Shown: positions 10,567 to 62,969 of the stretch, one piece after another
Position numbering within the stretch: position 1 is the stretch's first letter
Layout: each line of letters opens with the position of its first letter
DNA from: Sycon ciliatum
Taxonomy: Eukaryota; Porifera; Calcarea; Leucosolenida; Sycettidae
Assembly: GCF_964019385.1 (NCBI RefSeq)
Contig: NC_088645.1
Location: 22,014,711 to 22,078,710, forward strand
Length of the DNA stretch: 64,000 nucleotides
Reading direction: 5' to 3'
Position numbers and translations under genes: made by a program
The notes under the pieces: generated by a model
What the model was told of the DNA's origin: nothing
What the model saw: only the letters and a program-made list of their open reading frames with translations
Databases searched by the model: none

Positions 10567-10665
10567 CCTCATTCTTTACGTTTGAAACTCCGAATTTTGA
10601 AGGTAGCCATGTCATCATTATGCTTCACCTCCAACCCTAGATAGAACTACCTCAATCGAGAGCGC

Positions 10666-19629: not shown

Positions 19630-19786
19630 AATCTGGACGGAAGTCGAAGCCTCGGCACGCATGTATGGTGTGGATTTCCACAGTATGCCAATCTACGTTC
19701 AAAGCGCAAACCGGACAATGAATGGGAGCTCCTCAAAAATCATTTCACCTACTATAGTATAGCAGTTCTGTTTTGAATCGTTCCCA

Positions 19787-27063: not shown

Positions 27064-27266
27064 TAGGGACCGGCGGATTCTGCTCAAAAAGGTGGCAGAT
27101 TCTGCTCGGAAAGCTGTGAAATCGGCAGAACCATACAAACCTTATGGCGGGCAATTCCTCGAATTCTGCTCCATTTCTTTATCCACATACCAAACATGCA
27201 TGAAATTTACCAGAAAAAGTACCGAATTCTGCCAATTTTTCTGCCGGCAGAATCCGCCGGACCCTA
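27064..27266. mobile_element. hAT-like MITE, 203 bp (copy 2)
   Basis: Same element and target as 8540-8742; inherited through the duplication. Confidence 0.85.
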
Positions 27267-27451
27267 ATACTCAGGGCATGTACAGCATGAACCCATGCTG
27301 CAAGTAGTTTTATCGGGTCTACGCTACCCCAGCCGTCGCTGTTCTGGACTCAGACTGCATAGGAAGTTGCTGTCAATGACATTACGTTTACAGAGCACAA
27401 ATCACATGCAATTTCTGATGTGAACTCAGATGGGGAGCCAATTTAATTTTG

Positions 27452-27690
27452 GAAAAAAAGGAGAAGGGCAAACAATGTTACGAGTTATGACTAACTGTCC
27501 ACCAACGTAACCAGATCATCATAATTATGCAGTCAGCGAGTGCGACAAAATGGCACAAAACTGACAAGGCGTATTTAAAGACATTGACCGGCCTGACACC
27601 TAGCTCCAACACCTCTCCGAGGTGAGCCTTCCAAGTTAGTTGGAAGGTTGTTGGTTTGCGACTGGGGGAGGTGCTGGAGCTACATGTAAG
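27452..27690. repeat. Truncated GGTGAAAAAAGGAGGACAAA-family relic (copy 2)
   Basis: Counterpart of 8932-9177, with the same terminal hairpin and a small insertion (CATGTAAG). Confidence 0.6.
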
Positions 27691-27791
27691 TGTCAGGTCG
27701 GCGAATGGCTCATGCTTGTATTCAAAACAGGCTTCTATACCGTACTACTAGTAATAGTATACGAGAAAGACTTTTACACAAGACACCACAG

Positions 27792-29854: not shown

Positions 29855-29872
29855 ACAGTAGCAGTGATGCTA

Positions 29873-30021
29873 CAGTGCTGGCAACTGAAATCCGACCCCC
29901 TGAGCGGTGGGTTTACATTCTAGCGGTCCCTGTTTCGTAGTTTTACCATCCCGTGTTGGGTCTTTGACTCTTTGCGATGCGAGCGCACCAGTCAGGGGTC
30001 GGATTTCAGTTGCCAGCACTG
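29873..30021. mobile_element. 149-bp MITE, CAGTGCTGGCAACTGAAATC ends (copy 2)
   Basis: Counterpart of 9276-9424. It begins 19 bp from the end of the LINE. Confidence 0.75.
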
Positions 30022-30530
30022 CAGTGTACATAATTATAGACCAAGGCAACACCTTGCAGCCACGTGCCAGATAGTGCATTCCTCTCCGGAGGATACCCTA
30101 CGAGAGTCTAAGTAGAATGATGCGTGCGGAAGACGATCATTATGACAACGGGACACGAGAAACGGATTTGTTGCCCATAAATTATTCTGATTCGTGGACA
30201 GCTTGCTTGCGGCCGCTCGGAGCTCGACCACAACCAATGCACGTATCGTGATGCCCATGTTCATACACAGTAGCTGGTATTATCTCGTTGTCGAGTCAGG
30301 TTTAAACTGCGTATCATGAGCATGATTGGAGTTCTCGTAGAAAAGAGCGTCTCAACTGGTGGATGCTGGCAGCTGAGCGGTAAATCCAACATTCGAGCGT
30401 GGCCATCTTTGGATCAATAACTGAAAAAAGCCTCAGTGATAATTATTATGTTGGAAACTGAGAAGCGAATCCAACTAGCGGGATAGTGATGTTAAGTGAG
30501 CGCTAATGTTACGGGTGTGTCCGCTTAGCA

Positions 30531-31157
30531 ATGGCGTTCTGTGACTCCGGGACACGTCACGCCGTGCGTGGTCATGGCCCACTTCTTCTACTCCTCCTTA
30601 TTCCCACTTCATGCTTGCTGGCTGCGCGGGTTGTGGACATACACACACGCGATGATCGCCCACCATCCACAGCCTCCATCACCGAAGATCGGATTCGAGA
30701 AGGGCACAGTGGACGATGTTTCGTCGCTTCTGGCAACTCCAGCACATCACCGTGGTCTCAGCGTCAAACCACGATGTCTGAACGTAATGGCAACGTGCTC
30801 GTCCACCTAACACTTGACAGCAGTCAAGAAAGCCGAGGCAACACATTCATAGTGAAGCAAAACGGGAAAACGCTGTACGCTGCAAGCAGGCGGTTGCGAG
30901 TGAGGAGCCACACTCAGCACACATTCCGCCGCGGGCAAGGGCACACCGGACGGCAGCTGAGATCGGGTGAGTGCCAGCTGCTTCCCGCCTGGACGTCGGT
31001 CTGGCCACGTGACCAGTATGAGTGGCTGCTGTCTGTCTTCACAGCCACTCTGGGAAGGTGTTTGAGCACTGTCCTGGGCATTGTGGTTCCGTTACTGGTG
31101 GTTGTGATGCTGCAAACACTTTGCACTCGCCTTTTGGACGACCTCTGCTGCGACTAA
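30531..31157 (+). CDS. Small single-exon membrane/secreted protein, unknown family (copy 2)
   Basis: 208 residues from MAFCDSGTRHAV, paralog of 9937-10566. N-terminal hydrophobic segment LLLLLLIPTSCLLAA, C-terminal hydrophobic segment VLGIVVPLLVVVML, and the same cysteine-bearing tail (LCTRLLDDLCCD). The frame is open at full length, although a GAGGTAAGC that could act as a donor in copy 1 has changed to TAGTGAAGC here, so unspliced reading is favoured. Function unknown. Confidence 0.45.
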   Translation: MAFCDSGTRHAVRGHGPLLLLLLIPTSCLLAARVVDIHTRDDRPPSTASITEDRIREGHSGRCFVASGNSSTSPWSQRQTTMSERNGNVLVHLTLDSSQESRGNTFIVKQNGKTLYAASRRLRVRSHTQHTFRRGQGHTGRQLRSGECQLLPAWTSVWPRDQYEWLLSVFTATLGRCLSTVLGIVVPLLVVVMLQTLCTRLLDDLCCD

Positions 31158-31233
31158 CCTACAGTCCATTCATTTCTTTTGAAGTTCGGAACTTTGACGG
31201 TGGCCATGTCATCTTCACACTTCACCTCCAACC

Positions 31234-31968
31234 CGTAACACACGAACAGTCCTTGGCTACACTACGTGACAACGATTGTTTCCAAATGTTCACGGCATCA
31301 GTCCATTCATACAAAATATCCCCGCTGGCTTTTGAAAGCCCGATCTTAGCCGAATTGATATTCAAAAACCCACTTTAAACTAGAAAATCTAGGTTTTGAA
31401 TCTGTTTTTTTCCAGAATTTTTTCCATGGTATACCTACCTGTCCTAATTTTGTAAAACCTGGCTGAGTTTCTAATGTCCTGTCCTTGGACTTTCCTGGCC
31501 TCAACTGTGGCAAGGAATAATTGCACAGGTCACACAACGCAGGATGTTGTTTTCGCGATCTCTACAAAAACGTGGGAGACGATGAAAATTTAGGGTACCA
31601 ATTTCCTATGAATGGACTGCATACAGCATGGTCAAGTTTTGATCTCAGTCATTTGCACCAAGTCCTTGGCTACACACAAAAGTCAGATTCAGAATCTTCG
31701 ATTTTTTGCCAACAACTGGCATACTGGTGTACAATTACCCCGAGTAATGACACTACAATTGACAAAAATCCGGCAATGTATTCTAGCACACCAGATCCAT
31801 GTTAGAACTGAGATGTTGAATATTTGCCATAATTACGTACGCAAGAAGGTGGCTGAGCCAAGATCCAATGTTAGCAGCAATCTTCTTAATTATTACACAA
31901 AATATGTTTAAAAAAGAGAATCTGAGTGAATAGTGAATAGAGCACACCGTCGCATCATGTGCTCAATG
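31234..31968. other. Spacer between duplication copy 2 and beta-helix gene A
   Basis: AT-rich; no gene or element recognised. It contains the 3' flank of gene A (minus strand) without a clear AATAAA. Confidence 0.5.
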
Positions 31969-34900
31969 TCAGACCAGACCAAACAGTTTCTTTCCCCATC
32001 CAATAATGGTGTCAAGGTCGGGTGGTGTCTTGAGCACCGTGCCCTTGTCCAGGCCGAGTTGCAGCCACTGCTCGGCCGTCATCAAGTCGCCGCACACGTC
32101 CACGGTGGCTTTGGCCGAGGGCGCGTACACCAGGTTGTTGCCGGTGCGGAACGACAGCGTCTCCGGCTGCGTGACGTTGCACGCCGGCTTGAAGCGGTAC
32201 ATGTACTCGCCGGGCACTCCGCGCAGCACGCACGTGCAGTTCACGTAGCTGTCGGCGATCGACGCGTTCAGCGCGTTCTGGAAGACGCTGAAACAGGAGT
32301 ACTGATACACCTGCAGAACAGGTTCGACACAGAACAGGTTCAGAACCAAACGATACAACGCACTGGGGTCATCCTTCTCACATAGACAATACAGCAGAAC
32401 AGAACAGGTTCAGCAACAGATGATAAAACATGCTCCGGTCAAACCGCTCTCACATAGCCAATAATGCAGAGCAGGTTAGAGGTAAAGCATGTGAGGGCAA
32501 TGAAATCATCCCCCACCGGGAGCACACAAAACGTATCTGATTCCTCAAGGTCATAACACAATGTTCAAAACAAAATGATGGCAGACAAGTACGGAGAGTC
32601 CCTTCTGTATGCACATATAAACACATAATGCATTCACAGGTGCACACACGCACACACACGCACAGTCGCAAACGCCCATCTAAGCGCGAACCTCAAACAT
32701 CATGGCATGACGTATCTCAACGTTGGCATGCCAGCTGTAACACGCCAGCGCATCCTCACGTACATCACTGCCGCGCAACATGCAAAACACAACATGCAGG
32801 TACGTACCACCGGATAGATATTGTAGTTATTCGACGAGATCTTGTCATGGCCGCCAAAGTTTGTCTTATGCCCACCGTAGACCAGGTAGTTGTCGCTGTG
32901 ATGGTAATACGAGCTGCCGTCATCATTGTCCAAGCACAGACTTGAGCCGTAGTTGCAGAGCAACAGGTTATGGTGGACGACGTTCATTGCCGGGTAGACT
33001 GTTGGCTTCTCCGGATTCGGCACGTCGGTGAGAAACGGCTGCCGGTCCCAGGAGTTGAACGGTGCATGGTCGGAGCTCTCGCGGCACATGTTGAAGAGAA
33101 CATTGTCCTCCATGTCGTTGCCGCCGCCAAAGCCGTCGTTGATGTTGATGCCGGCACGCGGTCCGTTGAAGCAGATGTTTGTACGCAGTGTGGTCTGCGC
33201 CGACTTGGCTTGGAACCAGCAGCTGGACTGTTTCTCGTAAAGGCCGATCTCGTGGATGAAGTTCTGCTCGATGTGATTACGACGCGGCTGTTCACCGGAC
33301 GTGCCGTCGATCAGATTCGTGTAGCCCCACGCGGCCATTGCCGTGTCTCCAATCAAAGTGAATTCATTGTTACTGATCATACTGTCATGGACAAATCCAG
33401 ACAGGAACAATCCGTTGCCGTCTAGATTCTTGAAAACGCAGTTCTCAATCGTAAGCAGTTTTGTACCTTCGGCAAACACCGCACCGGATCGTTGTAGACC
33501 CCAGTCTCCACCGGACGGCACGCCGTGTGGATCCATGTACGTGTAGGCTGCTGTTGTCATGACAACATTCCTCAGGGTAAAGTTGATAACCGGATCGTCC
33601 ATAGAACCAGTGATGCTGATGAGAGTTTTCAGGTTGGCAGCAACAAACTGGAAGTCTTCAGGTGGAGGTCCTGTGCCGTTGTGGAAATAGTATAGTTTAC
33701 CAGAGTCTGGATTATAGAAGTACTCATTAGGGTGATCAAGCTCTTCGAAAACATTTGCCAACCACCACTCAGAGCCCTCCGCGCTTCCCCGCGCTCCTTG
33801 AAATCCTCCTCGGGAGAATGTACTTTTCCCGGATTCCGGGTCGAAGTCCTTGAAATCGAACATCCACGAGGACCAGTGGTGCGGGCGCCACGTGTGCAGC
33901 ACCGCCGTTTTCTTGAACAACTCCGCGTCGTAGGTGGCAAGACGCGGTAAGTAGAGCGGCTTGAAGACGATGCCCGATGGTGAGAGGAATGTAAATGCTC
34001 CACCGCCGCTGGGCTCATCGGAGCACCAGTAGGACTCGGGCGGCGTGAAGATGTCGCACGGGCCATCAATGCCGATGCGGAAGTTCTGGAACAGCGGGTT
34101 CAAGTCATCCGTGGGCTTGTCGATGGTGATGAACGTCGAGTTTCCCTTGTCGACAGGAGGAACCCAGTCCACTCCACCCGGCACCCATCCGGCCGGGAAA
34201 AGGGTCGTGTCTGGGCTTGCAATGTTCGGGTAGCGTGCACGATTGGCCTGGAAGAAGTTCCCGGCTTCGGCGTCTTCTTTTGTTTTGGCAATGAACATAC
34301 CGAGCTGCAGGTTTTCCGGCGCTTGGCCCGTGACGTCGGCAACGTAGATGTTGGTCCCATCGTCCCAGTAGCCACTCGTGTCCGTCATGGAGACGTGAGG
34401 CGCCCACCACTGGTCTGTGTGTAGGTAGCATCCCTGGCTCCAGCCAGTCGCGTCTGCCTTGTGCCAGGTCCACGAGAAACACTCGCCGTACTTGCACTGA
34501 CCCTCGCACTCCTCACTGCTGGCAAACGTCCCCACGTATCTGTGCAGCAAAGAGTCAAATACAAAAAGCCAGCCGTGGTTCCAGGGCTGTAACCCAGGGG
34601 TGCGAAAAAATACGATGGCAAATTGTCTTCTAACATAAATGATCATAAGGGGTCGTCCGTATTTTTCGAAAAATTAAAAAATCCGTCCTCAGGCAGAAAG
34701 GGGGTGGGTGGTCAAGAGCGCTGGCGGAATTTAATTTTTTGATTTTTCGTACCTTTTTTTCCGTCAGTGACTCATACACTCGTTGCACTGACTCGTAGTG
34801 CACTGTAGCTGTAGACGTAGTGTAGGATCGCAAACACCAGTATGATATACCGGTACATGACTTTTTTTGTGGTTGTAGGATGTGCATGGCCTTCGGTAGA

Positions 34901-37056
34901 CCTCCTACTCACTTTAGCTACTAGTACTTGACATACATACGTCATGTACATGTAGGTGCGATCACTGAATCAGTGAACATGGGGTCAGTTCTTATTTTCG
35001 AGCTGGGCATCGGTAAAAATCAAAAAATTAATGGGAAAAAATGGGGGGTGGGTGGGTGGGTCAGAGACAATTTTGCACGAGGACGGATTTTTTAATTTTT
35101 CGATAATTACGGACGACCCATAAGTAATCAGATGGTGAGTCAAGGAAAATCTTTTAAAAATTGAAACAAGGAAAATGGTGGGACACAAGCTATGTCTCAG
35201 AGACTCAGTATTCCTTGTCAGTCTGGTGCTACCTTGTGCACGTCTGACGTGTGCGGCTTGTTGTTTATTTATGCTCACCCGAAATGCGTGTGAGCTGCAT
35301 GATAATGCATTCTTGCAGGTTTGCGAGAGGAAAGCTCGATGGACTTTCCCTGTGCGCTCTGGATAACAGACATGAGCCAGTCAAGTGGCAAGTCATGGCT
35401 GCGGGGCTGATTGCCTCCCCCGTGTATAGGGAGCAGTCCTCTCCACTAGTGACTGCGTTCATCCCCGGGATGCCCACAGGATCAACTCAACATGTACACA
35501 TGTACGCATAGAGGTGATACGAGTATCATTTCACGGTGGATTTTCTAATGTGCACAACGCATGCAGCGTGAGTCAGCAGATTTTTAAATGTTAATGTGAG
35601 TCGCCAGTGCAAGTGCAGCGCTGTGCCGTGAGTCCACAACTTCCCCACCACATCTCTACTGATTATGTATTCGCATACCAGTAACCTTATTAAGGTGAAA
35701 AGGCATAGTGGTGGCCTGCGGACGCGAAGGCTATAGGCTGTGTGTTTCTGAACGTTCAATTGATGCTCGCGCACATCCCGGCGCGAATATTATAATTATC
35801 ATACCGGTAACCTCCATACAGTAAATCTCGTGAGTACATTATCAAAAATCGACCGAGGGTATAACAACAGTTCGCGAGTAACAACCCAATCTTCAGACAC
35901 GTAGCGACCCTTGTCTGCATAGCTTACTTTCACTCTTACAAATAATGACAAGATGCGGAAAATGACACTTTTCTCATGCATGATCGTGGGTCACTATTCA
36001 CAAGGTTGACCGAATTACGGATTTAGGGCAATCTTTCCAGAGTAGAGTCAGCTTGGCGTATAACGACACTCGGCGGGGCATCAGAAAAGTGTCCTTATTC
36101 GCGAAGTGCCCTTATACCCGAAGTCTCATTATATGTATACAGTTAGATGGGACTTTGCTCTGGGCATGGAAATTCTGTCGTTATTCGCGAATTGTCGTTA
36201 TATCCGCAGTCGTTATTTGCGAAATTGACTGTACTTACTTGATGGTGGGAGAGCTCTGGCCTGGTCCTGGTGCAAGTCCCCACACGTTGTCAGCTCCTCC
36301 CTGTATGATCATTTGTGGAGCGTGCTGGGATACGTTATATGGCTTCCACTGGGGTGCGAGAGGAAGTCCTCCACTCAGCACTACCGTCTCTCCAGGTGCA
36401 GATTCAATGATTGTACCGCTGTCCTGTACGTTCACTTCCACCGTGGTATTTAGATAGTGAATTCCAGAACGCAGTACTATGCCCACGCTGATGTCTGCAG
36501 CTCGTGAGCCAGGGTTCTCGTCTAGCTGCTGCCGTCGGTACGCCCGAGTGTGTGCCAGTGCCTGATGCAGCGTCCTGAACGGAGTGCGCGCATCGCTTGC
36601 ATCCGTGCTGAAGTCATCCCCGACCTTCGCATCCACATACACACGATACTGGACTTGGCTCAGCTTGTCGTTCAGTGGTGGTGCTAGCCTCTTCTTCTTC
36701 TGATGTTGCTGGTCCGTGCGTCGCTGCTGCTGAACTGAAATGTCAGGGTTAGGGTTGAATGGTTTGTGACATAGCGTGGTCAATTGGAGTGCATCCCAAA
36801 CGTTCTTCATCGGTGCACGATGCGGCTGTAATGAGAGACTGTAGTTGTAAACCAGATAGCGTGCTTCGCAGTCGAAATCGGCCGGCACATCCTGCGGAGC
36901 ACCATTGTTGCCGATGCGACGGAGCAGCTCGAATCCGTCATAATTCACCGCCTCCTGATGGTAGCCAAACTCGGCACCCTCTGTCACCACCAACCCGACC
37001 AACAGGCACGAGAAGACGAGGACTTGACCATCCCTCACGGTAAGAGATAACATCAT
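31969..37056 (-). CDS. Secreted Apple-like / right-handed beta-helix protein A (three exons)
   Basis: Exons 36239-37056, 32808-34539 and 31969-32310 (minus strand); intron phases 2 and 0; 963 residues. Exon 1 encodes a signal peptide (VLVFSCLLVGLVVTEG), a conserved EFGYHQEAVNYDGFELL region and the opening of a beta-helix (VYVDAKVGDDFSTDA, ARTPFRTLHQAL, VVLSGGLPL). Exon 2 begins with an Apple/PAN-like cysteine module (SSEECEGQCKYGECFSWTW...GCYLH), then RARYPN, NVFEELDHPNEYFYN, SGKLYYFHNG and many PbH1-type rungs (IENCVFKNLDGNGLFLSG, ISNNEFTLIGDTAMAAWGY). Exon 3 is a Cys-containing tail (NCTCVLRG...TIIGWGKKLFGLV). The fold is shared with polysaccharide lyases and some glycosidases; catalytic residues are not identified. 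Very close to B. Donors are GTAAGT and GTACGT. Confidence 0.85.
34650..35119. mobile_element. 470-bp MITE with GGGTCGTCCGTA ends in intron 1 of gene A
   Basis: The left arm GGGTCGTCCGTATTTTTCGA and the right arm ending ..TTACGGACGACCC pair over about 45 bp, with ATAAG on both sides (34645-34649, 35120-35124). It starts about 110 bp upstream of the exon 2 acceptor of gene A. Confidence 0.8.
36045..36231. mobile_element. TA-flanked MITE touching the exon 1 donor of gene A
   Basis: The ends GAGTCAGCTTGGCGTATAAC and (right, inverted) CAGTCAATTTCGCAAATAAC resemble each other, and TA lies on both sides (36043-36044, 36232-36233), as for Tc1/mariner-type elements. It includes about one and a half copies of a unit GTCGTTATTCGCGAATTGTC + GTTATATCCGCA, close to the 33-bp minisatellite unit at the right end of the window. 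The right TA overlaps the sixth base of gene A's donor. Confidence 0.6.
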
Positions 37057-37325: not shown

Positions 37326-37938
37326 CAGTCAGACCTCGCATAACCGCACACATCTGTTTTCCACAAAAATATCCGGATAGGCGAGGGAACTGGATAACCG
37401 AACACCGTTTATGTTGGATGCATCACGTATGCTGTAAATATGTAAGGCCAAACTAAAGAAGGTGTGTGGTTCGACTCACCCGACCGACCGTACAATTTCA
37501 GCCCGACCGTAACTTTTTTTCGGCGGGCTGTCGTGTGACTGACGTACGTGGACTGAACACGTCCACGTCTACGTGCTGTGCGGCGTGAGTCTGCGGACGC
37601 AGGCGGCTCCTTTTGGACTTGACTTGTAGTTGTACTGCAGTGCAGTGCAGTGAGTGGTACGACTGCTGCCTTGTGCTGGTAGTAGCAGGGAGCCCTACAC
37701 ATACCGGTATGTGTAGGGCTCCCTGGGTAGTAGAGTCTACTCGATACGCGTATACAGTGTATTTACATGTACTAAAAATATATATTAAAAAAAAAAAAAT
37801 CCGCCCGCCCGCCCGTTAAAAAAATGTCCATGTTAGTCGAACCACACACCTTCTTTAGTTTGGCCTAACCAGCTATTTTCTTCCGGATGGCGAGGGATCC
37901 GGATAATAAAAGAGGACCGGATAAGCGAGGTCTGACTG
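37326..37938. mobile_element. Tigger/pogo-like MITE with nested insertion
   Basis: The ends CAGTCAGACCTCGC / GCGAGGTCTGACTG are flanked by TA (37324-37325, 37939-37940). Subterminal GGATAAGCGAGG words are typical of pogo/Tigger-type MITEs (from memory). A partial copy is seen near 54830-54875. Confidence 0.8.
37445..37866. mobile_element. MITE with AGGCCAAACTAAAGAAGGTG ends, nested
   Basis: Inverted arms of about 32 bp (AGGCCAAACTAAAGAAGGTG...CACCTTCTTTAGTTTGGCCT). It lies wholly inside the 37326-37938 element. Exact target duplication not resolved. Confidence 0.8.
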
Positions 37939-37964
37939 TACTCCCGGTCTCTACCATGCATGTA

Positions 37965-38448
37965 CAGTAGGTATCGGTTATAGCGTGGGTGTTTGAAAAA
38001 CGACTTTCTATTCTTATTTCCGATATTTCTTACACACGATAAATCAAGTGTGGTATATCACATGCATGTGCGCAGAGGCAGGAAGATCATCGTACATACA
38101 ACGCAGTACTTCTGTGCATATGGTTGGTCACAGTCACATAGGCTTACCATGTGGCTATGCAAAATGAGTTACATGATCACAACAGTTGAATCTGCAGCAC
38201 TACGACGCAACGAGAGTCAGATCAGAACGGACGGATACTATTACTACAGGCGATACACTTTGTACTAATCTGGTATGTTTCGCTACACAAAGTCCATTCT
38301 TAGGACCGATATATTCTACTATGGGATAAAATTGCTTGTAAGAATAAATGTGCACTTGAAATCCGTGTTATGATTATGAAAACATGAGAGTTCATTCTTG
38401 TAGGCAGTATATTCTTTTACACCACCACGCTATAACCGATACGCACTG
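37965..38448. mobile_element. TA-flanked MITE with GTATCGGTTATAGCGTGG arms
   Basis: The ends CAGTAGGTATCGGTTATAGC and CAGTGCGTATCGGTTATAGC (right, inverted) have TA on each side (37963-37964, 38449-38450). 484 bp; Tc1/mariner-type target. Confidence 0.8.
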
Positions 38449-38643
38449 TACCAGTGAACTGGTCAACTAAACTTCTGCTGGTACCACGGTGACCCTGGGC
38501 GGTGATCGATCCCTGCAGATCTCTGCACTCTTGATATACAATGTATGAGTTGTGTACGAGCACAACTAAGTAGTTAGTTACTTTATTGATAGCCTGAAAG
38601 ACGTTCGGAAATGATGAGAATCCTAGTTTTCTAGAAAGTATTG

Positions 38644-39060
38644 GGGCATGTTCAATTGGTAGGATCGGGATCCAGATCTCAGATCCTTCAGAGTCAACCG
38701 AACACTTTTTTTGGACCTTGACTGTTGCCATGTTGACGAATTATTAAAATGGTGCTCACAGGTCACCCAAAAGGGTGAAAGTTGTACTCACCGCTCGCGT
38801 CGTACGAAAAGTCAACAAGAGTATCTCGATCCACGTGTGTGCGTACCACAATCTGTACAAACAGTCAAACAGGATTTTTACCCGCCACGCACGAAGGTCA
38901 CATTAATTTTGGATCCGTTGGATCGGGTCAACCCTGCTCCCCAAGGTGGGTTGACCAGATCCAAATCCAAAAGATCTGGATCCGGATTCGACCAATCGAA
39001 AGGGTGCGAATCCAGTGGATCCGTTTGATCTGGATCCCGATCCTACCAGTCGAACATGCC
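38644..39060. mobile_element. MITE with GGCATGTTC.A.TGGTAGGATC arms
   Basis: The left arm GGCATGTTCAATTGGTAGGA continues GGGATCCAGATC; the right arm is its inverted partner (GATCTGGATCCCGATCCTAC..CATGCC). The interior repeats GGATC many times. Target duplication not resolved. Confidence 0.7.
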
Positions 39061-39398
39061 TTTGGTCTCCGTGGGCCACTTTCTTCTTCTTTTTTTAAGG
39101 AAAAAGAAATGTCTGCTGTTGAATGGGTCAAGCAGCAAAACACAACAGGGTACTGAGCATGAGGTATACACGCTCCGATTTAAAAAAGACGACCCCTAGT
39201 ATAGCTCGAAAATTCTCGTTACGGTTTTATATTGGAAGTGCCCAATACCGGGGCAGTATTCATGAGAGTATTAAAGTAGGTTATCAAATAGGGGACTGTC
39301 ATTGTCAAGCCATATGGCAAGTCCATCTACATGTGATGTACATTCACATGTACATGTACACAGTCTGCACATTTATAAATGCAGCACAGACTACAGCA

Positions 39399-39462
39399 TA
39401 GTACAGCACAGTACAGTACAGTACGGAACTGTACTGTACTGTACTGTACTGTACTGTACTGT
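39399..39462. repeat. (ACAGT)n/(ACTGT)n palindrome
   Basis: ACAGT units run into ACTGT units around GGA, giving a near-perfect inverted repeat just beyond the 3' end of the dehydrogenase gene. It could extrude as a hairpin in DNA or RNA. Confidence 0.75.
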
Positions 39463-39488: not shown

Positions 39489-40790
39489 TCACACGCTCGT
39501 CTTGATGTCTTCGCCGGGAAAGTACTTCCTCAGGCGCACGTCGCCAGCGCGGGCGTGCGCCTCCATGCCCTCGAGGCGAGATATGCGCGCGGCCGCCGCT
39601 CCCACTTCGCGATTGGCCTCTCGTGTCATGCGTTGCGTTGTCACCACCTTGATGAACTTGTGCACGGACAGGCCGCCGGTGTAGTGCGCGGCGCCCTTGG
39701 TCGGCAGGATGTGGTTCGGCCCGGAGCACTTGTCGCCGTACGTGACCGTCGTCTCCTCGCCGACGAACAGCGAGCCGTAGTTGCGGAGGCGCTGTGCGTA
39801 CCACTCGTTCTCGCCCGTCTGCACCTCCAGGTGCTCGGCGGCGTACTGGTCGGACACGGTTGCCGCCTCGTCGCGAGTGTCGCAGACGACCACTTCGCCG
39901 TAGTCGCGCCAGCCCACGGTGGCCGCGTCGCGATTCGGCTCAGGCAGGTCGGCGATGAGGCCGTCCATGTGGCCCAGCACGTCCTCCGCCAGCTGCCGAC
40001 TCGTGCTGATCAGCCAGCACGGCGAGTCGGGCCCGTGCTCGCCCTGCGATACCAGGTCCTGGGCGACAATGGCCGCATCGGCACTGCCGTCGGCGATGAC
40101 GGCAATCTCCGTCGGCCCGGCGACCATGTCCATGCCGCACTGGCCGAACAGCTGGCGCTTGGCTTCGGCGACGAAGCGGTTGCCGGGACCGACGAGCACT
40201 TTGGCAGCGCGGCCCGTGAACAGTCCGTACGCCATAGCGGCTATGCCCTGCACCCCGCCCAGCACTAGTATGGTGTCCGCGCCGCACACACTCATTGCAT
40301 ACACGATAGCCGGACTGGCGCCGGATTGGTCGTGCGGTGCCGTGCACGCTACGATGTGCTCCACACCCGCTACCTTAGCGGTGACTATAGACATTATCGC
40401 GGAGGCTACGTGGGAGTAGCGGCCACCTGGCACATAGCAGCCGGCTACGTCGATCGGGATCAGCTTCTGCCCGGCCCAGAGACCTGGCGACAGCTCCGTT
40501 TCAAACGACTGAATCGAGTCGCGCTGCGCCTGGGCAAACTTGCGTACACGATCGATGGAGAACTGAATGTCGGCCTTGAGCTGTTCCGAAACGGTGTCGG
40601 CTGCCGCTTCAATGCGCTCCTTGCTGAGCACGATGTCGCCCTCGTACTTGTCTAGATCCTTGCCATACTGTATAGCTGCCTGCTCCCGACCGGCTTCGAT
40701 CTTCTGCAGCATTGCACGCACTATCCGGCTCGTCTCCTCGCTGCCGCTCTGCGGCGTCTTCTGCGCCTTCTTCAGGTAGGTGACAGGCAT
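39489..40790 (-). CDS. HisD/HpsN-family zinc-dependent alcohol dehydrogenase (single exon)
   Basis: 433 residues starting MPVTYLKKAQKTP, near the usual length for the family. The family oxidises an alcohol to an acid in two NAD+-dependent steps using a zinc site. The zinc ligands of histidinol dehydrogenase are all matched: Q249 and H252 (SQGEHGPDSP), D353 (YGDKCSGPNH) and H412 (LEGMEAHARA). So is the catalytic pair E319-H320 (AAEHLEV). Other signatures are GCYVPGGRYSHVAS, GGVQGIAAMAYG and LVGPGNRFVAEAKRQLFG. GRYSHVAS and GLSVHKFIK resemble sulfopropanediol (DHPS) dehydrogenase HpsN more than true HisD; this is from memory of the families. There is no other histidine-pathway gene here. It is intronless, between beta-helix genes A and B. 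Animals lack histidine synthesis, so a catabolic role or an acquired gene is likely. There is no signal peptide. Confidence 0.9.
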   Translation of the reverse strand: MPVTYLKKAQKTPQSGSEETSRIVRAMLQKIEAGREQAAIQYGKDLDKYEGDIVLSKERIEAAADTVSEQLKADIQFSIDRVRKFAQAQRDSIQSFETELSPGLWAGQKLIPIDVAGCYVPGGRYSHVASAIMSIVTAKVAGVEHIVACTAPHDQSGASPAIVYAMSVCGADTILVLGGVQGIAAMAYGLFTGRAAKVLVGPGNRFVAEAKRQLFGQCGMDMVAGPTEIAVIADGSADAAIVAQDLVSQGEHGPDSPCWLISTSRQLAEDVLGHMDGLIADLPEPNRDAATVGWRDYGEVVVCDTRDEAATVSDQYAAEHLEVQTGENEWYAQRLRNYGSLFVGEETTVTYGDKCSGPNHILPTKGAAHYTGGLSVHKFIKVVTTQRMTREANREVGAAAARISRLEGMEAHARAGDVRLRKYFPGEDIKTSV

Positions 40791-42033
40791 GGTGAGTGCG
40801 GGCGCGGGGGTGCGTGCGTGTGCCGGCGTGTGGAACTGCTGCTCCGTTAAATCCTGTATCCAGACTCACTGAATGCTGCAAACTACTGGCCGGGATCCAG
40901 CGGCTGGCTCATAACACGACAATTACTGCGAGCTCTCTCGTCGGTTTTTCGCACATTCACGGCGCGCTGGGAAAGATTGCTCAGCTATGGTCGCTCTGCT
41001 GCCTGAACAATACCTGCCCTGCCCGTCGCTTTATGGAACACAGATCGGTAATGTGTCGCAAATAAAAGAAAACTCCAAGGCCAGTGAAAGATAATGAAAA
41101 TGTCAAAAACGATGACTTCTTTCACCTTTTATAATTATTTCACTTCATTCTCCCCCTGGCCTGTCACTTCACTGTCTTGAGTGTCACTGAGTGACTCTCT
41201 GTCTTTTTTCAAGTCTTTAGCAGGGCTCTCCACCACCAGACTCTCTACTTCTCTGCCAGACTCTGGTCCTGGAAAACGCCTACAAAACAAGATTGGTGTA
41301 GATGGTGTGTAGACGTAGACCAACATCATCTACATGGTGTAGGCCAGGCCCAGGGGGAGTATGTACCGGTAGAGTGTAGAGACTGTAGTGTAGCCTGTAG
41401 CCTCAGTGTACATGGTGTAGGGGTGCGTGTGGTGTGTGAAGGCTGGTGAAAGATGAGGGGAAACCCCATACTTGCATTCGCAACACTGCACACGCCACGG
41501 CACGGCATCGGACAGACTCAACTCTCAAGTCGGAGCCAAGCAATGCCAAGGCAAGTACTTTGACTTGTATTGGTAATTATTGGGACGTTGGGTCCCGACT
41601 AAAGTAAGTTGATCGAGTTGAGTCTTGCAGCTTGAGCCTCGACTTGAGACATCGACGTACTCGTGCGTTGCGTGAGCGCAGATATTATCGAACGCAGGGA
41701 TGATGCCACTGCACTGCCCAGTCTGGTACAAACGGACCAAAGCCTTTTTTAGTACTGGTTGGCTTAGTCCGGACATCGACGACCGTTATGATAATGCAAT
41801 CATGCAGCGCTGGCCTAGCTGGGTTGGTCAACGGTGACAACAGTGGCAACAGCCAGTAGAAGGGTGCCAAGCCAAGGTGGGCTGGACGACGCCGTTGATA
41901 AAATTTTAGTTGAAAAGTGTCACGGTAGGTGGTGGCAAAACAATTTTCTTGATATCGACTCTGGGAAAGGTATCACCCATCCGCGTACAAGGCTCGACTC
42001 AGTCGGACAGTTTTCTTGAGTAGCTGAGAGCCT
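40791..42033. other. Intergenic region between divergent dehydrogenase and beta-helix gene B
   Basis: The two starts face away from each other across 1.24 kb, so a shared promoter region is possible but no motif was identified. No gene or repeat element recognised. Short TC-rich and GTGTAG-rich stretches occur at 41140-41420. Confidence 0.5.
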
Positions 42034-45000
42034 ATGAATATGATTGGATTCACAAGGAACACTGTGTGGAAGGCTGCGTCCCTTGTTCTGGCTTTGTCAG
42101 CCATGCTCGCGGTATTTGCGGTGACGGAGGGTGCGGAGTTTGGCTACCATCAGGAGGCGGTGAATTATGATGGATTCGAGCTGCTTCGACGCATCGGAAA
42201 TAATGGTGTTCCGGACGATGTGCCCACAGATTTCGACTGCGAAGCACGCTATCTGGCTTACAACTACAGTCTCTCGTTACAACCGCATCGTGCACCGATG
42301 AAGAACGTGTGGGATGCACTCCAATTGACCACGCTATGTCACAAACCATTCAATCCTAACCCTGACATTTCAGTTCAGCAGCAGCGACGCACGGACCAGC
42401 AACATCAGAAGAAGAAGAGGCTATCACCACCATTGAGCGACAAGCTGAGCCAAGTCCAGTATCGTGTGTATGTGGATGCGAAAGTCGGGGATGACTTCAG
42501 CACGGATGCAAGCGATGCGCGCACTCCGTTCAGGACGCTGCATCGGGCACTGGCACACACTCGGGCGTACCGACGACAGCAGCTGGACAAGAACCCTGGC
42601 TCGCGAGCTGCAGACATCAGCGTGGGCATAGTACTGCGTTCTGGAATTCACTATCTGAACACCACGGTGGAAGTGAACGTACAGGACAGCGGTACAATCA
42701 TCGAATCTGCACCTGGAGAGACGGCAGTGCTGAGCGGAGGACTTCCTCTCGCACCGCAGTGGAAGCCATACAACGTGTCACAGAGTCCTGCGACGATGGT
42801 CATACAGCAAGGAGCTGACAATGTATGGGGACATGTGCCCGGTCCAGGAAAGAGCACACCAACTATCAAGTAAGTTTTTTAAAAAATTTAAAAAATGGTT
42901 TTAACCATCACCACCCCACCGCCACCTTTAACACAGGGGCATTTCCTGGCCCCTGCTGGGACTTCCCTACATTGTCCAACGAAATGATAAAACCCTGGGC
43001 TTGCAAACTGGTATGCGTTTGTACAGGAAGGGGATGATAAACCACAGAATCCAACGAAATTGCAGTGCACGTGGGTGCTTGGCTCAGAGACATTCTCTCG
43101 GGAATCTCCTACATGTACAGTGACGACATTCGCTGACAGTGCAAGCCGGTGCATCACTAGAGTTGTCTTGACCAGGACTGATGTCTCCTTTCATGACAGC
43201 TACTTTACCATTATAACACCCTGCATTGCTATTGTATAATTATTGCAGTGACTCTCCCTCCATCCATCAGAGTGTTAACTCTGGCTTCTAGTCAGTCGGT
43301 AGAATACATGTTAGGGTAACCCTATAGGTGTAAATTTTGGCAAATTGCCGGCAAAGTGCTCGATTCACAGAGTGCAGAGCGTTTCAAACGAGAAAGAGAA
43401 AAGTGGGCCGGTTGGGATTCGTCGTAGCTCACTGTTTCATGCTAATACAATCATTTGACGAATCCCAACTGGCCCCTTTTCTCTCTTTCTCTTTGTAAAG
43501 GTAACTCTATGTTGGTGCTAGAAGCACATCTATGTACGTCCTGACTAGCTGCGGCGATATTTCTTTCGTCTGGGCTTGCACCATGCAGGTACGTGGGAAC
43601 GTTCGCCAGCAGTGAGGAGTGCCAAGCCCAGTGCAAGTACGGCACCTGCTTTGCGTGGACCTGGCACAAGAAGGACGCGACCGGCTGGAGCCAGGGCTGC
43701 TACCTGCACAGCGACCACTGGTGGTCACCACATGTCTCCACCACCGACACGAGTGGCTACTGGGCGCAGGCTCCTAACATCTACGTTGCCGATGTCACCG
43801 AGCAAGCACCGGAAAACCTGCAGCTCGGCATGTTCGTTGCCGAAACACGAGAAGACGCCGAGGCCGGTAACTTCTTCCGCGCCAACCGTGCACGCTATCC
43901 GAACATTGTGAGTGCGGAGAGGACCCTGTTCCCGGCTGGATGGGTGCCGGGCGGGGCCGACTGGGATGGACCTGCGGACCTGGGCAACTCGACCTTCATC
44001 ACGGTCGGCACGCCGACGTACGAGGCCAACCCGGACTTTGAGCACTTCCAGATCGGCGTGGACGGCCCGTGCAGCATCTTCACACCGCCCGAGTCGTACT
44101 GGTGCTCCGAAAAGCCCAGCGGTGGTGGAGCGTTCACGTTCCTGTCCCCGTCCGGCGTAACCTTCAACAAGACGGTCCTGACACGAGCCGCGACATACAA
44201 TGCGGAGCTATTCCAGGAGACTGCAGTACTGCATACATGGCGCCCGTCGCATTGGTCCTCGTGGATGTTCGAGTTCAAGGACTTCGACCCGGAATCTGGG
44301 AAGGGCAAGTTCTCCCGGGGAGGATTTCAAGGTGCACGGGGAAGCGCAAAGGGCTCTGAGTGGTGGTTGGCAAATGTTTTCGAAGAGCTCGATCACCCTA
44401 ATGAGTACTTCTATAATCCAGACACTGGTAAACTATACTATTTCCACAATGGAACTGGAGCTCCACCGGAAGACTTCCAGTTTGTTGCTGCCAACCTGAA
44501 AACTCTCATCAGCATCACTGCTGCTATGGACAATCCAGTGTTCAACTTTACCCTGAGGAATGTTGTCCTGACAACAGCAGCGTACACGTACATGGATCCA
44601 CACGGTGTACCATCCGGTGGAGACTGGGGCCTACAACGATCCGGTGCGGTGTTTGCCGAAGGTACAAAACTACTTACGATTGAGAACTGCGTTTTCAAGA
44701 ATCTAGACGGCAACGGATTGTTCCTGTCTGGATTTGTCCATGACAGTATGATCAGTAACAATGAATTCACTTTGATTGGAGACACGGCAATGGCCGCGTG
44801 GGGCTACACGAATCTGATCGACGGCACATCTGGCGAACAGCCGCGGCGTAATCGGATCGAGCAGAACTTCATCCACGAGATCGGCCTTTACGAGAAACAG
44901 TCCAGCTGCTGGTTCCAAGCCAAGTCGGCGCAGACCACACTGCGTACAAACATCTGCTTCAACGGACCGCGTGCCGGCGTGAACATCAACGACGGCTTTG

Positions 45001-46094
45001 GCGGCGGCAACGAAATGGAAGACAACGTTCTGTTCAACATGTGCCGCGAGAGCAGCGATCACGGGCCGTTCAACTCCTGGGATCGGCAACCGTTTCTCAC
45101 CGACGTTGCAGACCCTGAGAACCCGTCGCTGTACCCGGCTGTGAACAACATCCACCACAACTTCCTTATTGGCAACTACGGATCTAGCATGTGCCTGGAC
45201 AACGACGACGGAAGTGCCTACTATCACCATAGCGACAACTACCTGGTGTACGGCGGACATAAGTCTAACTATGGCGGTCACAACAAGGTCTCAACCAACA
45301 ACTACAACCTGTACCCTGTGGTGAGTACTAGTAGCTGATCTAAACCGATAACGTGCTGCATTGCCACAGGAAGTCTCTAAATCCAGGTGTTCTCTAAAGT
45401 CTTAACCCAGGTGATCTCTAAACCCAGGTGGCCTCAAAACACAGGTGTCCTCGAAACACAGGTGGTCCCCTAACACAGGTGTTCTCTTATCCATGCACTG
45501 GTGGTCACTTGTCACAGGTGGTCTCTGAACCTAGGGATCCCTTAGCACAAGTGGTCGCTTGAAACAGGTTTTGCATTGAGGCTTTACTTTACTTCAGCTT
45601 GTACCATCCTCCCCTCCCAAGCCTACCCCGCACAAGAGATCCTGCCTATAATTGTAGTGTGATACATTCCTTTCCAGCACTAAAGCCATCACAGTAATAC
45701 TGTACCGTTGTCTCTTTCCTGTGTGCGGTGTGCTGTTTTGTTTTGGGTACAGGTCTATTCCTATTCCTGTTTCAGTATCTTTCAGAACACGCTCAACGCC
45801 ACGTACGCCGAGGCCTACATGAACTGCACGTGCGTACTGCGCGGCGTGGCCAACGAGAACATGTACCGCTTTCAGCCGGCCTGCGATCTCACCAAGCCAG
45901 ACACGCTCTCGTTCCTCACCGGCGACAACACCATCTACACGCCCACCGCCAACGCCACGGTGAACGCCTGCGGCAAGACGCTGACGGCCGAGCAGTGGCT
46001 GCAGCTGGGACTGGACAAGGGCACGGTGCTGAAGACATCGCCGGACGTGGACACCATCATCGGCTGGGGAAGGAAGCTCTTCAATCTGAAATAG
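42034..46094 (+). CDS. Secreted Apple-like / right-handed beta-helix protein B (three exons)
   Basis: Exons 42034-42869, 43589-45320 and 45753-46094; phases 2 and 0; 969 residues. Signal peptide LVLALSAMLAVFAVTEG, then EFGYHQEAVNYDGFELL. The exon 1 helix start (VYVDAKVGDDFSTD, GIVLRSGIHYLNTTVE, ETAVLSGGLPL) is nearly the same as in A. Exon 2 opens with the Apple-like module (SSEECQAQCKYGTCFAWTW...GCYLH) and contains RARYPN, NVFEELDHPNEYFYN, SSCWFQAKSAQTTLRTNICF, INDGFGGGNEMEDN and YGGHKSNYGGH. Exon 3 is the 113-residue tail. It is closest to A, with the best match in the central part of exon 2. Probably extracellular; an enzymatic role on polysaccharide is an inference from fold only. Confidence 0.9.
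43388..43497. repeat. Small foldback repeat in intron 1 of gene B
   Basis: AACGAGAAAGAGAAAAGTGG... is mirrored by ...CCCTTTTCTCTCTTTCTCTTT, with CGGTTGGGATTCGTCG/CGAATCCCAACTGG as the inner stem. About 110 bp, and the right end lies about 90 bp from the exon 2 acceptor. Confidence 0.7.
45360..45590. repeat. Degenerate CAGGTG-rich tandem repeat in intron 2 of gene B
   Basis: The word (A)CACAGGTG(G/T)(C/T)C TC recurs about every 15-25 bp, at least nine times. Related to the CAGTGAAACCTGT MITE family by words such as GTGGTCGCTT and ACAGGT. Confidence 0.6.
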
Positions 46095-47327: not shown

Positions 47328-50300
47328 TCACGGAATTCCAAACAGGGATTTTCCCCACCCGATGATCGTGTCCACATCGGGCGACACCTTAACACTGGTC
47401 CCCGGGTCCAGGTTCATGGCCAGCCACTGGTCGGAGGTCAGCGACTTGCCGCACATCTTGAGCTCGGCCTTGCCACTGGGTGTGTACACCGTGTTGCCAC
47501 CGGTCTTGAAGAAGAGCGTGTCGGGCTTGTTCAGATCGCACTCGGGCAGGATGGAGTACATGTGCTCGCCGCTCACGCCCTGCAGCACGCACGTGCAGTT
47601 CAGGTAGGCGTCGGCGTGCGTGCGATTCACCGCGGCGAAGCTCATGCGAAAGCACACCAGCTCGTACACCTGGGATGCGTAGCAAACACGACAGCAGCAG
47701 CACAGACAGAACAACTTATAAACCGGGGTAACTTGGAAGACGTATGCCATACTTGCCCGAGGACAATGCGCACTTGTTCAGGCCCCAGCTCGCAGGTAGA
47801 ACAACTTGTGCAGGGCAACTAGAAAGAAGTACTTCGAAGTATACATTGCAACAAAAAGAAAGGCGAATTGTACCGCAAGCATTTTTTGCTGTATTGAAAC
47901 GTTTGTCTCCGAAACGGCTGTTCAAGTACACATTGCCTAACTATCCTGACCACAATGTATTCATTATTATATTCTTCTTCAATGCGGTGAACCCCTGGAT
48001 AGGTGGCCCGCCTTTGGGCCAGCCTAACAGAGATAGTCTTAAAAGTTATTGTTCTATCAAGGCCAGTGATGAAAGTTCCTACTTCATTTCGCATACCGGA
48101 AGCATGTTGCAACGCTCTTCGTCACGAAAAAAGTTGATTTAAGTTCAACGTTTTCGACCCATAGCACGACCATCGCCACAATCATGGTTATATACAAGCA
48201 GAGAAGCCTGTCTAAGGCGACCGCTCAAGGGACCTTAAAAATGTGGTCTCCGTGTACAGGTAGTCTCCTTATCCAGGGCCATTTGACTGGAAACGAGAGA
48301 GCTTGAAAGCTCAGGGCCCTCGCTCTGCTTTTTTGCTAGGTCATCATATACACAAAGTGTCTGCAGTCTTTGCTGCAAGCAGTGCTCAATACCTCAAAAA
48401 GGGGCAGAGCTTACCACACAGGGCAGAACAACAGAGACCAAAAATCCTTCTCGTGACTCCGATTTTCGTGTTTCAAAAACAGTTTTGAGGTATTGAGCAC
48501 TGTTTGCAGCAAAGACTACAGACACTTTGTCTATATCGCTCCTGCTAGCAGTTGAGCACTTTCCCCTGAGCTGCATACAATGGACCGACCAAAACGGATG
48601 GACCTCGACTATTCGCTCAAGAACGTACCTATCCCAACGGCTAAAGACTAGAAAAGAAACATGCCTCAACAGGAGAAGCGAGCTCATCTCGGAGTGTAGG
48701 TCCCCTCAAGCTTCGTGGTCACTGCGGCACTGACTTAGCCTACGGTACAATAACCCTATCGAATCCGTTGATCCCCGAGCTATGTACAATAACCCTATAT
48801 AACTAGCGAATAGCATTATTATCGTTTATCGTCTGATGAGTTTTTTGAAACACGAAATTTGGAGTCACGAGAAGGATTTTTGGTCTCTGTTGTTCTGCCC
48901 TGTGTAGGTCATCATGTATGTTATTCGAACTGATGGAAACGTTTTTGCAATACAATCATCGGCTACATCATTGCATTGCAAAAACGTTTCCATCAGCTCG
49001 AACAACATGCATGATGACCTAGGCCAAAAAGCTTAGCGAGGGCCCAGAGCATTCAAGCTCTCTCGTTTTAAAATGAACGTATTTAGTGAAATATAGACTT
49101 ACATAATTATTATGTTCATCTTACTAAGTGGTGAATCAAGCCCTTCGTTGTATTCGTACACTTCCTACCCTCCTCCTCCCCCCCCCCCCCCCCCGGATGA
49201 TTACAATTCAACAATAATGTGAATAATGCAATCTCTAGTTCTCCATACAGTGCTGCGACGGCAGAACTTCACATCATGTGGCATGGCTCAAAAGGTTACT
49301 TTGGCAAACAGTGCAAAGTGACCAGGAGAAAGCTGAAGCCAAAGCAGGGTTGCGTACAACCCTGTATCTATCATGCACAGGGTGCAAATGCTGTGTACGG
49401 GTTCGTAGCGTGATGTGAAGTTCTACCGTCACAGACCCCATACTAGCTGGAGTCGCACACTCTTAGGAGTTACTGTATAGCAGGAAATTTTCGGACGGAA
49501 ATATTTTCGGACAAAACCGAATTTCGCACTTTCGTACGGATTTCATTTTCGTACAGTGTAGCATGCTAAATGCACGTGTTCGCATGCGGTACGCATGTAT
49601 AGTGTACATAACTTCACAGGAACAAATTTTAGTACGGAATTAATTTTAGTACAAAAGAGGCCGTGAAATCGTCAGAAAATAAATTCCGTCCGAAAATTTC
49701 CTGCTATACAGTATGTACTCTTGAGTCTTGATATCAGCACAACAGCTTACCCGTGGGTAGATATTGTAGTTGTTTGTGGAGACCTTGTCGTGGCCATAGA
49801 AGTTGCTCTTGTGTCCGCCGTACACCAGGTAATTGTTGCTATGGTGATAATAGGCGCTGCCGTCGTCGTTGTCAAAGCACATGCTGGAGCCGTAGTAGCC
49901 GATGACTAGATTGTGCGTGAAGTTGTTCACGGCGGGGTAGACGGACGGCGCGGCGGGATTGGCGACGGCCGTCACGAACGGCTGCCGGTCCCAGGAGTTA
50001 AACGGCGCGTGATCGGAGCTCTCGCGGCACAGGTTAAACAGAACGTTGTCCGCCATGACGTTAGCGCCGCCGAAGCCGTCGTTGAAATTCACGCCGGCTC
50101 GCGGGCCGTTGAAGCAGACGTTCTTGGAGAGTCGCGTTTGCGCCGAGCGCGCCTGAAACCAGCAGCTGGCCTGCTTCTCGTAGAGGCCGAGCTCGTGGAA
50201 GAAGTTCGACTCGACGAGAGTGCGGCGCGGCTGCTCCTGGTTGGTACCGTCGATGAGATCCGTGTAGCCCCATGCCGCTATGGCAGAGTCGCCGATGAGC

Positions 50301-53300
50301 GTGAACTCATTGCCGGAGATGACGCTATCGTGGACAAAGCCGGACAGGAACAGTGCGTTGCCGTCGAGGTTCTTGAAGAGACAGTTGCGGACGGTGAGAT
50401 TTGCCGTGCCCTCGGCGAACACGGCACCCATCCGCTGCAGCGCCCAGTCACCGCCGGACGGTACGCCATGCGGGTCCATGAAGGTGTATGCGGCGCCCGT
50501 CAACACCACGTTCTGTATGGTGAAGTTAACCACCGGCGCTGCCTTGCTACCCGTGATGTTCACCAGCGTCTTCAGATTGGCGGCGACAAACTGAAACCCG
50601 CTCGGTGGTGCTGTGCCGCTGCTTGCATTGTGGAAATAGTACAGCTTGCCCGTGTCCCGATTGTAGAAGTACTCGTTGGGGAAGTCGAGCTCCTCGAAGA
50701 CATTGTCGATCCACCATTCGGCGCCCGTGCTGGCACCGCGGGCACCCTGGAAACCGCCGCGAGAGAACTCGCCGTGCAGCCCGGAGGCGTCAAAGTCCTT
50801 GAACTCAAACATCCACGTGGCCCAGTGGGAAGGTCGCCATGTGTGCAGGACGGCCGACGAGGCGAAGAGCGTGCCATTGTACGACGGCTTGTTCAGCGCA
50901 TCCTTGTGAAACGTGACGCCGCTCGGCGACTGGAACATGTGTGGACCGCCGCCCTCGGCATGGTCGGAACACCAGTACGACTCCGGCGGCGTGAATATAC
51001 TGCACGGGCCTCCGGTGCCCACACGATAGTTGGTGAACAGAGGGTTTAGATCGTACGTCGGGTGATCCACGGTGGTGAAGTTCGGCTTGCCAAAGTCCCT
51101 GGGCTTGTCCCAGTCGACGCCGCCGCCGATCCAGCCGTTCGGAAACTGCGTCACCTCCTGCGAGACAATGTCCGGGAATCGAGCACGCGTGGCACGCCAC
51201 AGATTCCCGGTCGCCGCGTCCTCAGCAGTGCTGGCGACAAACAGACCGAGCCCAAGTTTCTCCGGTACACCAGTGCCGACATCGGCGACGTAGACGTTTG
51301 GTCCTCGCAGCCAATGGCCGCTGGTCATGTCGTTCTCTTTGGTCGGCGCCCACACGTGATCGCTGCGGTGATAGCACATGTGTCGCCACTCGCCCTGTGA
51401 CTGTCCGTGCCACACCCAGGAGTTGCACACGTCCTCGGTGGAGTTGTACTTGCACAGCTGCTGGCATTCCTCCGCGGTGTCCATCTTGCCTTTGTAGCTG
51501 ATCAACAACAAACAACACCACCACAGTTACCCGATGTGCACAATGCAGCAAGCACAAAATGCCGGTACTTGTCAATACTCAATGTGTCAGTACTCAGTAT
51601 GTCAATACTCAGTATGTCAATACTCAGTATGTCAATACTCAGTATGTCAATACTCAGTATGTCAATACTCAGTATGTCAATACTCAGTATGTCAATACTC
51701 GTACTATTACAGTGCATGAACTACAGTACAGTGAAACCTGTCTACAAGACGACCGCTCAAGGGACCTTCAAAGTGCAGTCTCTGTTACCAGGTGGTTTCC
51801 TTATCCAGGGTCAGTTGACTGGAAATAAGGAAATACATGAAGCATCCCTCGGTCCTGGTTGCAGTGGTCTTCTAGGACAGGTGGTCGCCTTATGCGAGTG
51901 GTCGCTTTCACAGGTTTTTACTGTACTTCGAAGTAGAATGCCGATTTTCCGAACCTCAACTATCCAAACAATCGATTGCCCGAATTGCCTTTTTGCTTTG
52001 AGCTTTTGAAACTTTTCAAATGATGCACAGGATATGTATACCCGGTAGCAGTAGGATGTCGTCAAAATGTATCCCCGTGGAGCCACTTCGAGAAGCTGAA
52101 GTGTGCCTAATCCCTGCAGTAATGCCGAAGAGAATGAGAAGTGATGAAAACATAGGGGAATGCACATGTGCTAGATGCACGCGTGGCCGCTTCTGTATCC
52201 GAATCCACTCCTCATCCAAACTCCATGGACACGGACCTGCGCCATCATGTGGGCATGCGGATAATCGGCACTCTACTGTACAGCACAGTCCATTACCAAT
52301 ACTGAGTAGTAGCCTGTGTTCAAGACAGCAATGACGTACATTCCAGTGCTCATCTAATAAAGTAAATAAATTCGACGGGTTCGCGTACCGGGCAGGTCAA
52401 CAACAAGGAGTCGTACAACTCCCTGGTCAAGAACCACCTTTCTGCTTCCGTGGGACGCCGCCACCCCATGATCAGGCATCAGATGCGGCTCCTAAACGGG
52501 GGGGGGGGGGGGGGCTCATTCAATGCATGCAACCAAATGCCATCCTACTCACAACACCAGCAGATAATACCCCCCCCCCCCCCCCACCCACACATGCATA
52601 CACACAGCGGAGGATAAACGGACAGACACACAGACACATACACTCACTGACTCAGTCACGCACATGTACGTTGTACTGTCGTGGACATGGAAATCCGGTC
52701 GCACGTCTAGCGGCCCCAGGGCGCTGGCCATGCAGCCGTGGATAAGCGGTACGTACACACATGCATTTTATGCGCTGCAGCACGCTGGTCGCATCGGATC
52801 AACATGTGCGCTGCACGCAGCGTTCTATACGCGCTGAGGGCGCCGGGCCCGGTCAATCGACCAGATTTCCATGTCCAAGACAGTACATGTAGACTGCGAA
52901 TGTGGCTTACTGTATGGTGGGTGTACTGCTCCCAGCCTGTCCCACCTGCCCATAGATATTGTTTTGCCCCTGATCGACAATCATCTGCACTCCACCCGAT
53001 GTATTGTACGCAGTCCACTCTACGGACAGTGGCATACCACCACTCAAAACAGCTGTCTCTCCCTGATACGATTCCAGGGTGGTAGAGCTATCAGCTGCCG
53101 TGATCTGCAGAGTCTCGTTCAGGTAGTGGACTCCACCGCGCAGGACTATGTTGGCAGTGACATGCCAATCACCGCCTTGCTGCTGTCTGAACTTCCTCGT
53201 CTGGCGGAGTGCTCGCTGAATGGACTTGAACGGCGTCCGCTCCGACGAGCCGTCCACCGAGGCATCGTCACCGCGAACTGCATCCACGTAGACACTGTAC

Positions 53301-57605: not shown

Positions 57606-57662
57606 TAGCGTCACCATCGTCAGTACCGGTGGCGCCAGCTGCAACACTACTACATCAGGACA

Positions 57663-62969
<5,307 letters not shown>

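Follow-up and report, generated by a model that had tools for sequence, protein, structure and literature searches.

The window, by which we mean the whole analysed stretch of 64,000 nucleotides of Sycon ciliatum DNA (C3:22014711-22078710 in a genome of 538 Mb and 313 contigs), carries on its minus strand an intronless coding sequence at 39489..40790 for a predicted HpsN-type DHPS 3-dehydrogenase. The frame runs for 433 codons with zero internal stops, just as an earlier sequence-only reading had described it, and its product of 433 amino acids scores 434.8 bits against PF00815, covering positions 4-411 of the 411 in the profile, which is far beyond chance. The zinc ligands Q249, H252, D353 and H412 and the E319-H320 pair that had been named in that reading are all found at these residues. 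GC content is 64.7% in the gene versus 49.7% across the window.

Directly 3' of the gene lies a simple TACAG/GTACT tandem array (39382..39462), and 428 bp downstream of the stop codon sits a MITE-like repeat of 417 bp with 34-bp terminal inverted repeats (38644..39060). The repeat is dispersed genome-wide, with relatives at no fewer than 40 further places (82-85% identity over about 380-450 bases; counted from 40 scored among 686 candidates), and for this element the earlier claim of flanking MITEs is borne out. At 37442-37869 and 37962-38451, inverted repeats with arms of 38 and 37 nt are probably two more MITEs. On the other side of the gene, upstream intergenic DNA extends over 40791..42033, with CACC before the ATG and an in-frame TGA at 40868; 1,210 bases of it (40791-42000) match only themselves in a search of the genome.

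Beyond these flanks we find pieces of beta-helix-type animal genes. The upstream neighbour is on the plus strand at 42034..45338 (region 42.0-46.1 kb), and the paralogous downstream neighbour, on the minus strand at 32700..37056 (region 32.8-37.0 kb), is an inverted copy of it. The inverted pair spans 32800-36988 and 42120-45328 and encloses the HpsN gene; identity is 85% and 92% in its two longest stretches, and the unique upstream flank leads into a gene piece that shares 92% identity with its inverted counterpart across the gene. Spliced animal-type genes had been claimed on both sides: the pieces are indeed there, while their splicing is read only from their position in separate open reading frames. 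Two of the four beta-helix pieces scanned match PF13229 weakly. A six-frame hmmscan of 35.0-44.9 kb (E <= 0.001) gave no Pfam family beyond that of HpsN; in particular it gave none of the hpsO, hpsP and transporter families, which reflect bacterial operon context and not a property of the enzyme. The same scan missed the beta-helix pieces too, so weak matches escape it. Phage carriage was considered as well and dropped (0 PHROGs families).

The gene is part of an animal chromosome as assembled. Its contig, C3, is animal, with a host repeat nearby and a unique flank, as known from the assembly alone. In the genome at large there are 55 matches to Wnt exons against 0 in 14 prokaryotic controls, Wnt being not known from outside the animals. 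Of the Wnt rows, 21 reach profile position 283 or further, and Sycon Wnt names go up to U (PMC12419799), which would point to a calcareous sponge as no more than a guess; a search for COX1 gave no match. Elsewhere in the window, a direct segmental duplication with kinase genes links 3883-10637 and 19629-31234 (four longest stretches 91-96% identical), its second copy being broken by an RVT_1 frame at 28118-29800; the segment 21359-22233 matches itself in inverted orientation (92%), and a tandem repeat with a period of ~70 bases occupies 56557-57663.

Substrate residues and histidine enzymes

As predicted from its residues, the window protein is an HpsN (DHPS 3-dehydrogenase) and not a HisD. 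The four best of 11 matched solved sequences are HpsN or (R)-DHPS dehydrogenase, with E from 1.2e-164 for 8v35 (CpHpsN; residues 3-428 to 3-428, gap-free) to 8.4e-155 for 8wwe, whereas the best histidinol dehydrogenase among them reaches 1.7e-68. The PDB codes of the C. pinatubonensis HpsN paper include 8v35 (8v35-8v37 and 9cp7-9cp9; PMC11382572). According to the same paper, the motif G-R-Y-A/S-H separates HpsN from HisD, which has G-S-A-P-L there and no His; His126 of the motif binds zinc first and the sulfonate next, Lys353 is the second sulfonate contact, and CpHpsN, with the same residues, is inactive on histidinol (PMC11382572).

The window protein carries not the HisD motif but the HpsN-only G-R-Y-S-H at residues 123-127 (codons at 40410..40424), H127 being equivalent to His126 of C. 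pinatubonensis HpsN. The catalytic pair E319-H320 (39831..39836) corresponds to Glu318 and His319, and D353, a zinc ligand, together with K354, the predicted sulfonate contact (39729..39734), to Asp352 and Lys353; equivalents of the zinc ligands Gln248, His251 and His411 are present too. Altogether 12 of the 13 CpHpsN residues mapped are identical, the exception being S226, replaced by T227; most rows of an 18-row alignment likewise have T at this column. The NAD contacts L45/D46/F205 are also shared with CpHpsN (PMC11382572). Apart from Ser226, CpHpsN differs in its setting: the window gene is on an animal chromosome, and within ~4 kb of it Pfam recognises neither hpsO nor hpsP nor a transporter gene. 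GRYSH and K354, as HpsN-specific substrate residues, argue for a sulfonate (DHPS) as substrate, the earlier reading having proposed a sulfonate or similar diol. Among the bacterial relatives the motif GRY[AS]H is general, occurring in 52 of 53 fetched survey rows (L and G numbers denote our loci and genomes) and lacking only from L097, a 35% match. The window protein also groups with HpsN, away from HisD, in a tree of 82 rows with one HisD row as outgroup.

A second PF00815 gene, missed in the sequence-only reading, is found on contig C1 (L006-L008; C1:55916020-55931528, minus strand), in four matched exon pieces and with the HisD-type motif GGSAVL. A PRA-PH piece (E 5.9e-6) lies upstream of these exons on the same strand. 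More exons of HisD type are present, as is a PRA-CH-like match of 10 residues (E 0.57, of no significance alone); we infer that the C1 pieces form one gene. For robust corals, a fungal-like histidine pathway is reported in which a single polypeptide combines PRA-PH, PRA-CH and histidinol dehydrogenase (PMC6214176). The HisD part of that coral gene shares PF00815 with the window HpsN and is resembled by the C1 exons, while the C1 gene differs from the window HpsN in its GGSAVL motif, its spliced structure and its job. C1 also bears an IGPD gene in one open frame (L090; C1:45438933-45439361; E 7.9e-60). As the genome has HisD and IGPD genes of its own and a PRA-PH piece, doubt falls here on the premise of the sequence-only reading, which took animals to be without histidine synthesis. 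Origin of the window gene as a retrocopy of the animal's own HisD was dropped, the two being of different class (GRYSH versus GGSAVL).

Phylogeny, conservation and codon usage

Of 111 relatives, 80 were kept; L029, an 892-aa frame, is in no tree. In the 82-row tree, 79 rows are bacterial relatives and the other three are an E. coli HisD, CpHpsN and the window gene; a 33-row tree was drawn from the same 82 rows. A 70-row tree combines 21 of them with 49 of the 53 survey rows (frame translations, matched part only), without L097 and without L092, L093 and L094, which are second copies of L013, L009 and L010. Finally, a 31-row tree leaves out L010 and L013 by design. The survey took in 109 genomes from the order of G002, 49 of which have a match at E <= 1e-150, and 61 from that of G003, 30 of which do.

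In all four trees, made of bacterial rows plus HisD and CpHpsN where included and holding no eukaryotic homologs, the window gene nests among proteobacterial HpsN. This is the outcome of the HisD/HpsN part of the phylogeny that had been proposed as a check, and it agrees with the possible acquisition from bacteria suggested at the same time. The sister in the 70-row tree is L013+L010+L107, gammaproteobacteria of one order (100/98); it is L013+L010 both in the 33-row tree (97/98) and in the 82-row tree (98). When L010 and L013 are left out, the window gene joins L107 at 77/93 and then rows from the order of G003 at 48/92. A bacterial source is supported by the trees, with vertical inheritance among eukaryotes unlikely as far as trees of this composition can tell. 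The exact donor would be less firm, as support drops from 100/98 to 77/93 without L010 and L013 and the next forks are weak. The end branch of the window gene measures 0.33-0.47 changes per column across the 82-, 33- and 70-row trees.

The HpsN of the three sister rows (gammaproteobacteria from the order of G002) are 64-68% identical to the window protein and carry GRYAH, but their GC3 is 0.43-0.46 versus 0.82 in the window gene. By bin name only, L013 matches the sponge Mycale hentscheli assembly MH-Pat-SR (PMC7157528) and L010 the colony IP29b from Isopora palifera coral skeleton (PMC9868349). G002, the genome of L013, is a gammaproteobacterium binned from a sponge assembly; it has HpsN-like genes in three copies (67, 66 and 58%) and a more distant match at 30%. 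In the 82-row tree there is also a 44-row clade of HpsN/HisD-like, mostly marine alphaproteobacterial rows, whose sole aligned member, L045, has GGKFPM in place of GRY[AS]H.

Bacterial relatives sit in DHPS-type loci in the two cases examined, L009 and L013. The first has DctP, DctQ and DctM before the HpsN gene and, after it, one gene of PF13561 and one of PF08240/PF00107, families that serve to recognise hpsO and hpsP in the HpsN survey (PMC11382572). At the second, a TPP-enzyme gene precedes HpsN and an SDR gene is nearby.

Judging from its sequence, the gene looks maintained. A set of 75 bacterial rows, taken from locus numbers up to 35 and 92-144 with L029, L092, L093, L094 and L097 excepted (L036-L088 are not included), has 102 invariant columns; the window protein is changed at three of them (R35, T150 and M220). 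In a leave-one-out control the same 75 rows show a median of 0 changed invariant columns and a maximum of 3; the window protein thus equals the worst bacterial row, so slight relaxation is possible. Compared with L013, 290 residues are identical, 199 of them written with a different codon, and the alignment has gaps in one row only (7 columns). In codon usage the window gene correlates at r = 0.85 with a host gene (49646-51511) and at 0.78 with eight pooled host genes, versus -0.38 to -0.07 for the sister rows. It should be noted, however, that the GC-rich L009 (0.86) and L126 (0.90), which belong to another order, fit equally well and that host genes taken one by one range between 0.26 and 0.85, so codon usage is no proof of adaptation to the host. 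Naming a donor from codon usage was dropped on the same ground, the fit of GC-rich rows from another order.

Predicted function and alternative explanations

We consider it likely that a transferred proteobacterial gene in the animal nucleus encodes an R-DHPS-oxidising HpsN. A proteobacterial gene would have entered the nucleus, its probable donor being a host-associated gammaproteobacterium near the order of G001/G002 (the G001 locus is labelled Arenicellales), and its product would be a cytosolic, NAD+- and zinc-dependent HpsN. By homology with the mechanism set out for C. pinatubonensis HpsN (PMC11382572), this enzyme would convert R-DHPS via R-sulfolactaldehyde to R-sulfolactate, a four-electron oxidation that uses two NAD+. 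R-sulfolactate might then be oxidised to sulfopyruvate and transaminated to cysteate by the animal's own enzymes, or be exported.

We favour such host oxidation and transamination, or export, over C-S cleavage as the fate of sulfolactate. The enzymes would be malate dehydrogenase and aspartate aminotransferase, acting through side activities. Search of the genome with PF04295, which we take to be the SuyB family, gave nothing, and for Xsc none was found apart from one 57-position piece below cut-off; exon-split copies of either can escape such a search. TIGR01275, a model that presumably includes CuyA, gave eight pieces at two places on C1 (two spliced genes, at 65.86 and 88.72 Mb), all below a cut-off that is set for whole proteins and beyond the reach of single exons, so C-S cleavage of CuyA type may occur. 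Of the sequence-only reading, the sulfonate specificity is supported; catabolism may follow, but SuyB and Xsc were not found and the TIGR01275 pieces stayed below cut-off.

A misjoin of bacterial symbiont DNA into the animal assembly might seem to fit an intronless gene with the deviating GC content given above, and such bacteria do live in sponges and corals. We regard it as very unlikely nonetheless, given that a genome-wide animal repeat is 428 bp from the stop, that the 1.2-kb flank is unique in the genome and leads into an animal paralog, that no second Pfam family turned up within ~4 kb on either side and that the bacterial rows found reach 68% identity at most. No Shine-Dalgarno pattern is present in the last 20 bases before the ATG, and no sigma-70-like site was found upstream, the latter being weak evidence with 0.6 expected by chance. 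We see just as little chance that the gene is a recent, non-functional insert that has not yet decayed. It is a single exon known from the assembly, but 433 codons have stayed free of stops, and the recoding of residues shared with L013, the gaps confined to one row and the length of the end branch all speak of divergence, which counts here only if part of the change arose within the animal.

Two other explanations concern the substrate. That the window gene is a histidinol dehydrogenase for histidine synthesis would agree with its score against TIGR00069 hisD (420.3 bits, cut-off 243.8) and with the occurrence of histidine-pathway genes in the genome; that model, however, passes an HpsN-type protein and so cannot tell HpsN from HisD, the role is filled by the separate spliced gene with GGSAVL, and CpHpsN with the same GRYSH-type motif and lysine does not act on histidinol (PMC11382572). 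This makes a HisD exceedingly improbable. A transferred and expressed gene whose substrate has shifted to another diol or hydroxy-sulfonate is unlikely, if less so: DHPS pathway partners SuyB and Xsc were not found and three invariant columns are altered, but the 13 mapped residues are kept save one S/T change common to bacterial relatives.

Possible DHPS use by a sponge

With an R-DHPS-oxidising HpsN as the preferred reading, what we describe is an ordinary enzyme with an unexpected owner, an additional HpsN, in an animal. Among the matches listed in the open-licence literature we found no report of an HpsN in an animal. The HpsN survey names bacterial classes only; it retained a sequence only where hpsO and hpsP lay close by, so an animal copy would escape it (PMC11382572). 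DHPS is described as a currency in which nutrients pass from phytoplankton to bacteria (PMC11131964). If our reading is true, the animal itself could use this sulfur compound, which is normally handled by bacteria, and would be a direct consumer of it; the gene would also be a concrete example of what an animal gains when host-associated bacteria pass genes to it, and the origin of sponge taurine would become testable through one enzyme.

One may go further and imagine a sulfonate route owned by the sponge, in which DHPS from plankton or symbionts is turned via R-sulfolactate and, by host malate dehydrogenase and aspartate aminotransferase, via sulfopyruvate into cysteate and, by a decarboxylase, into taurine, on which symbionts feed. 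We hold this extension to be rather unlikely. The work on the taurine-using symbiont of Ianthella basta, which places this symbiont in Arenicellales, regards taurine synthesis by sponges as still to be demonstrated and contains neither of the terms 'DHPS' and 'dihydroxypropan' (PMC10356861).
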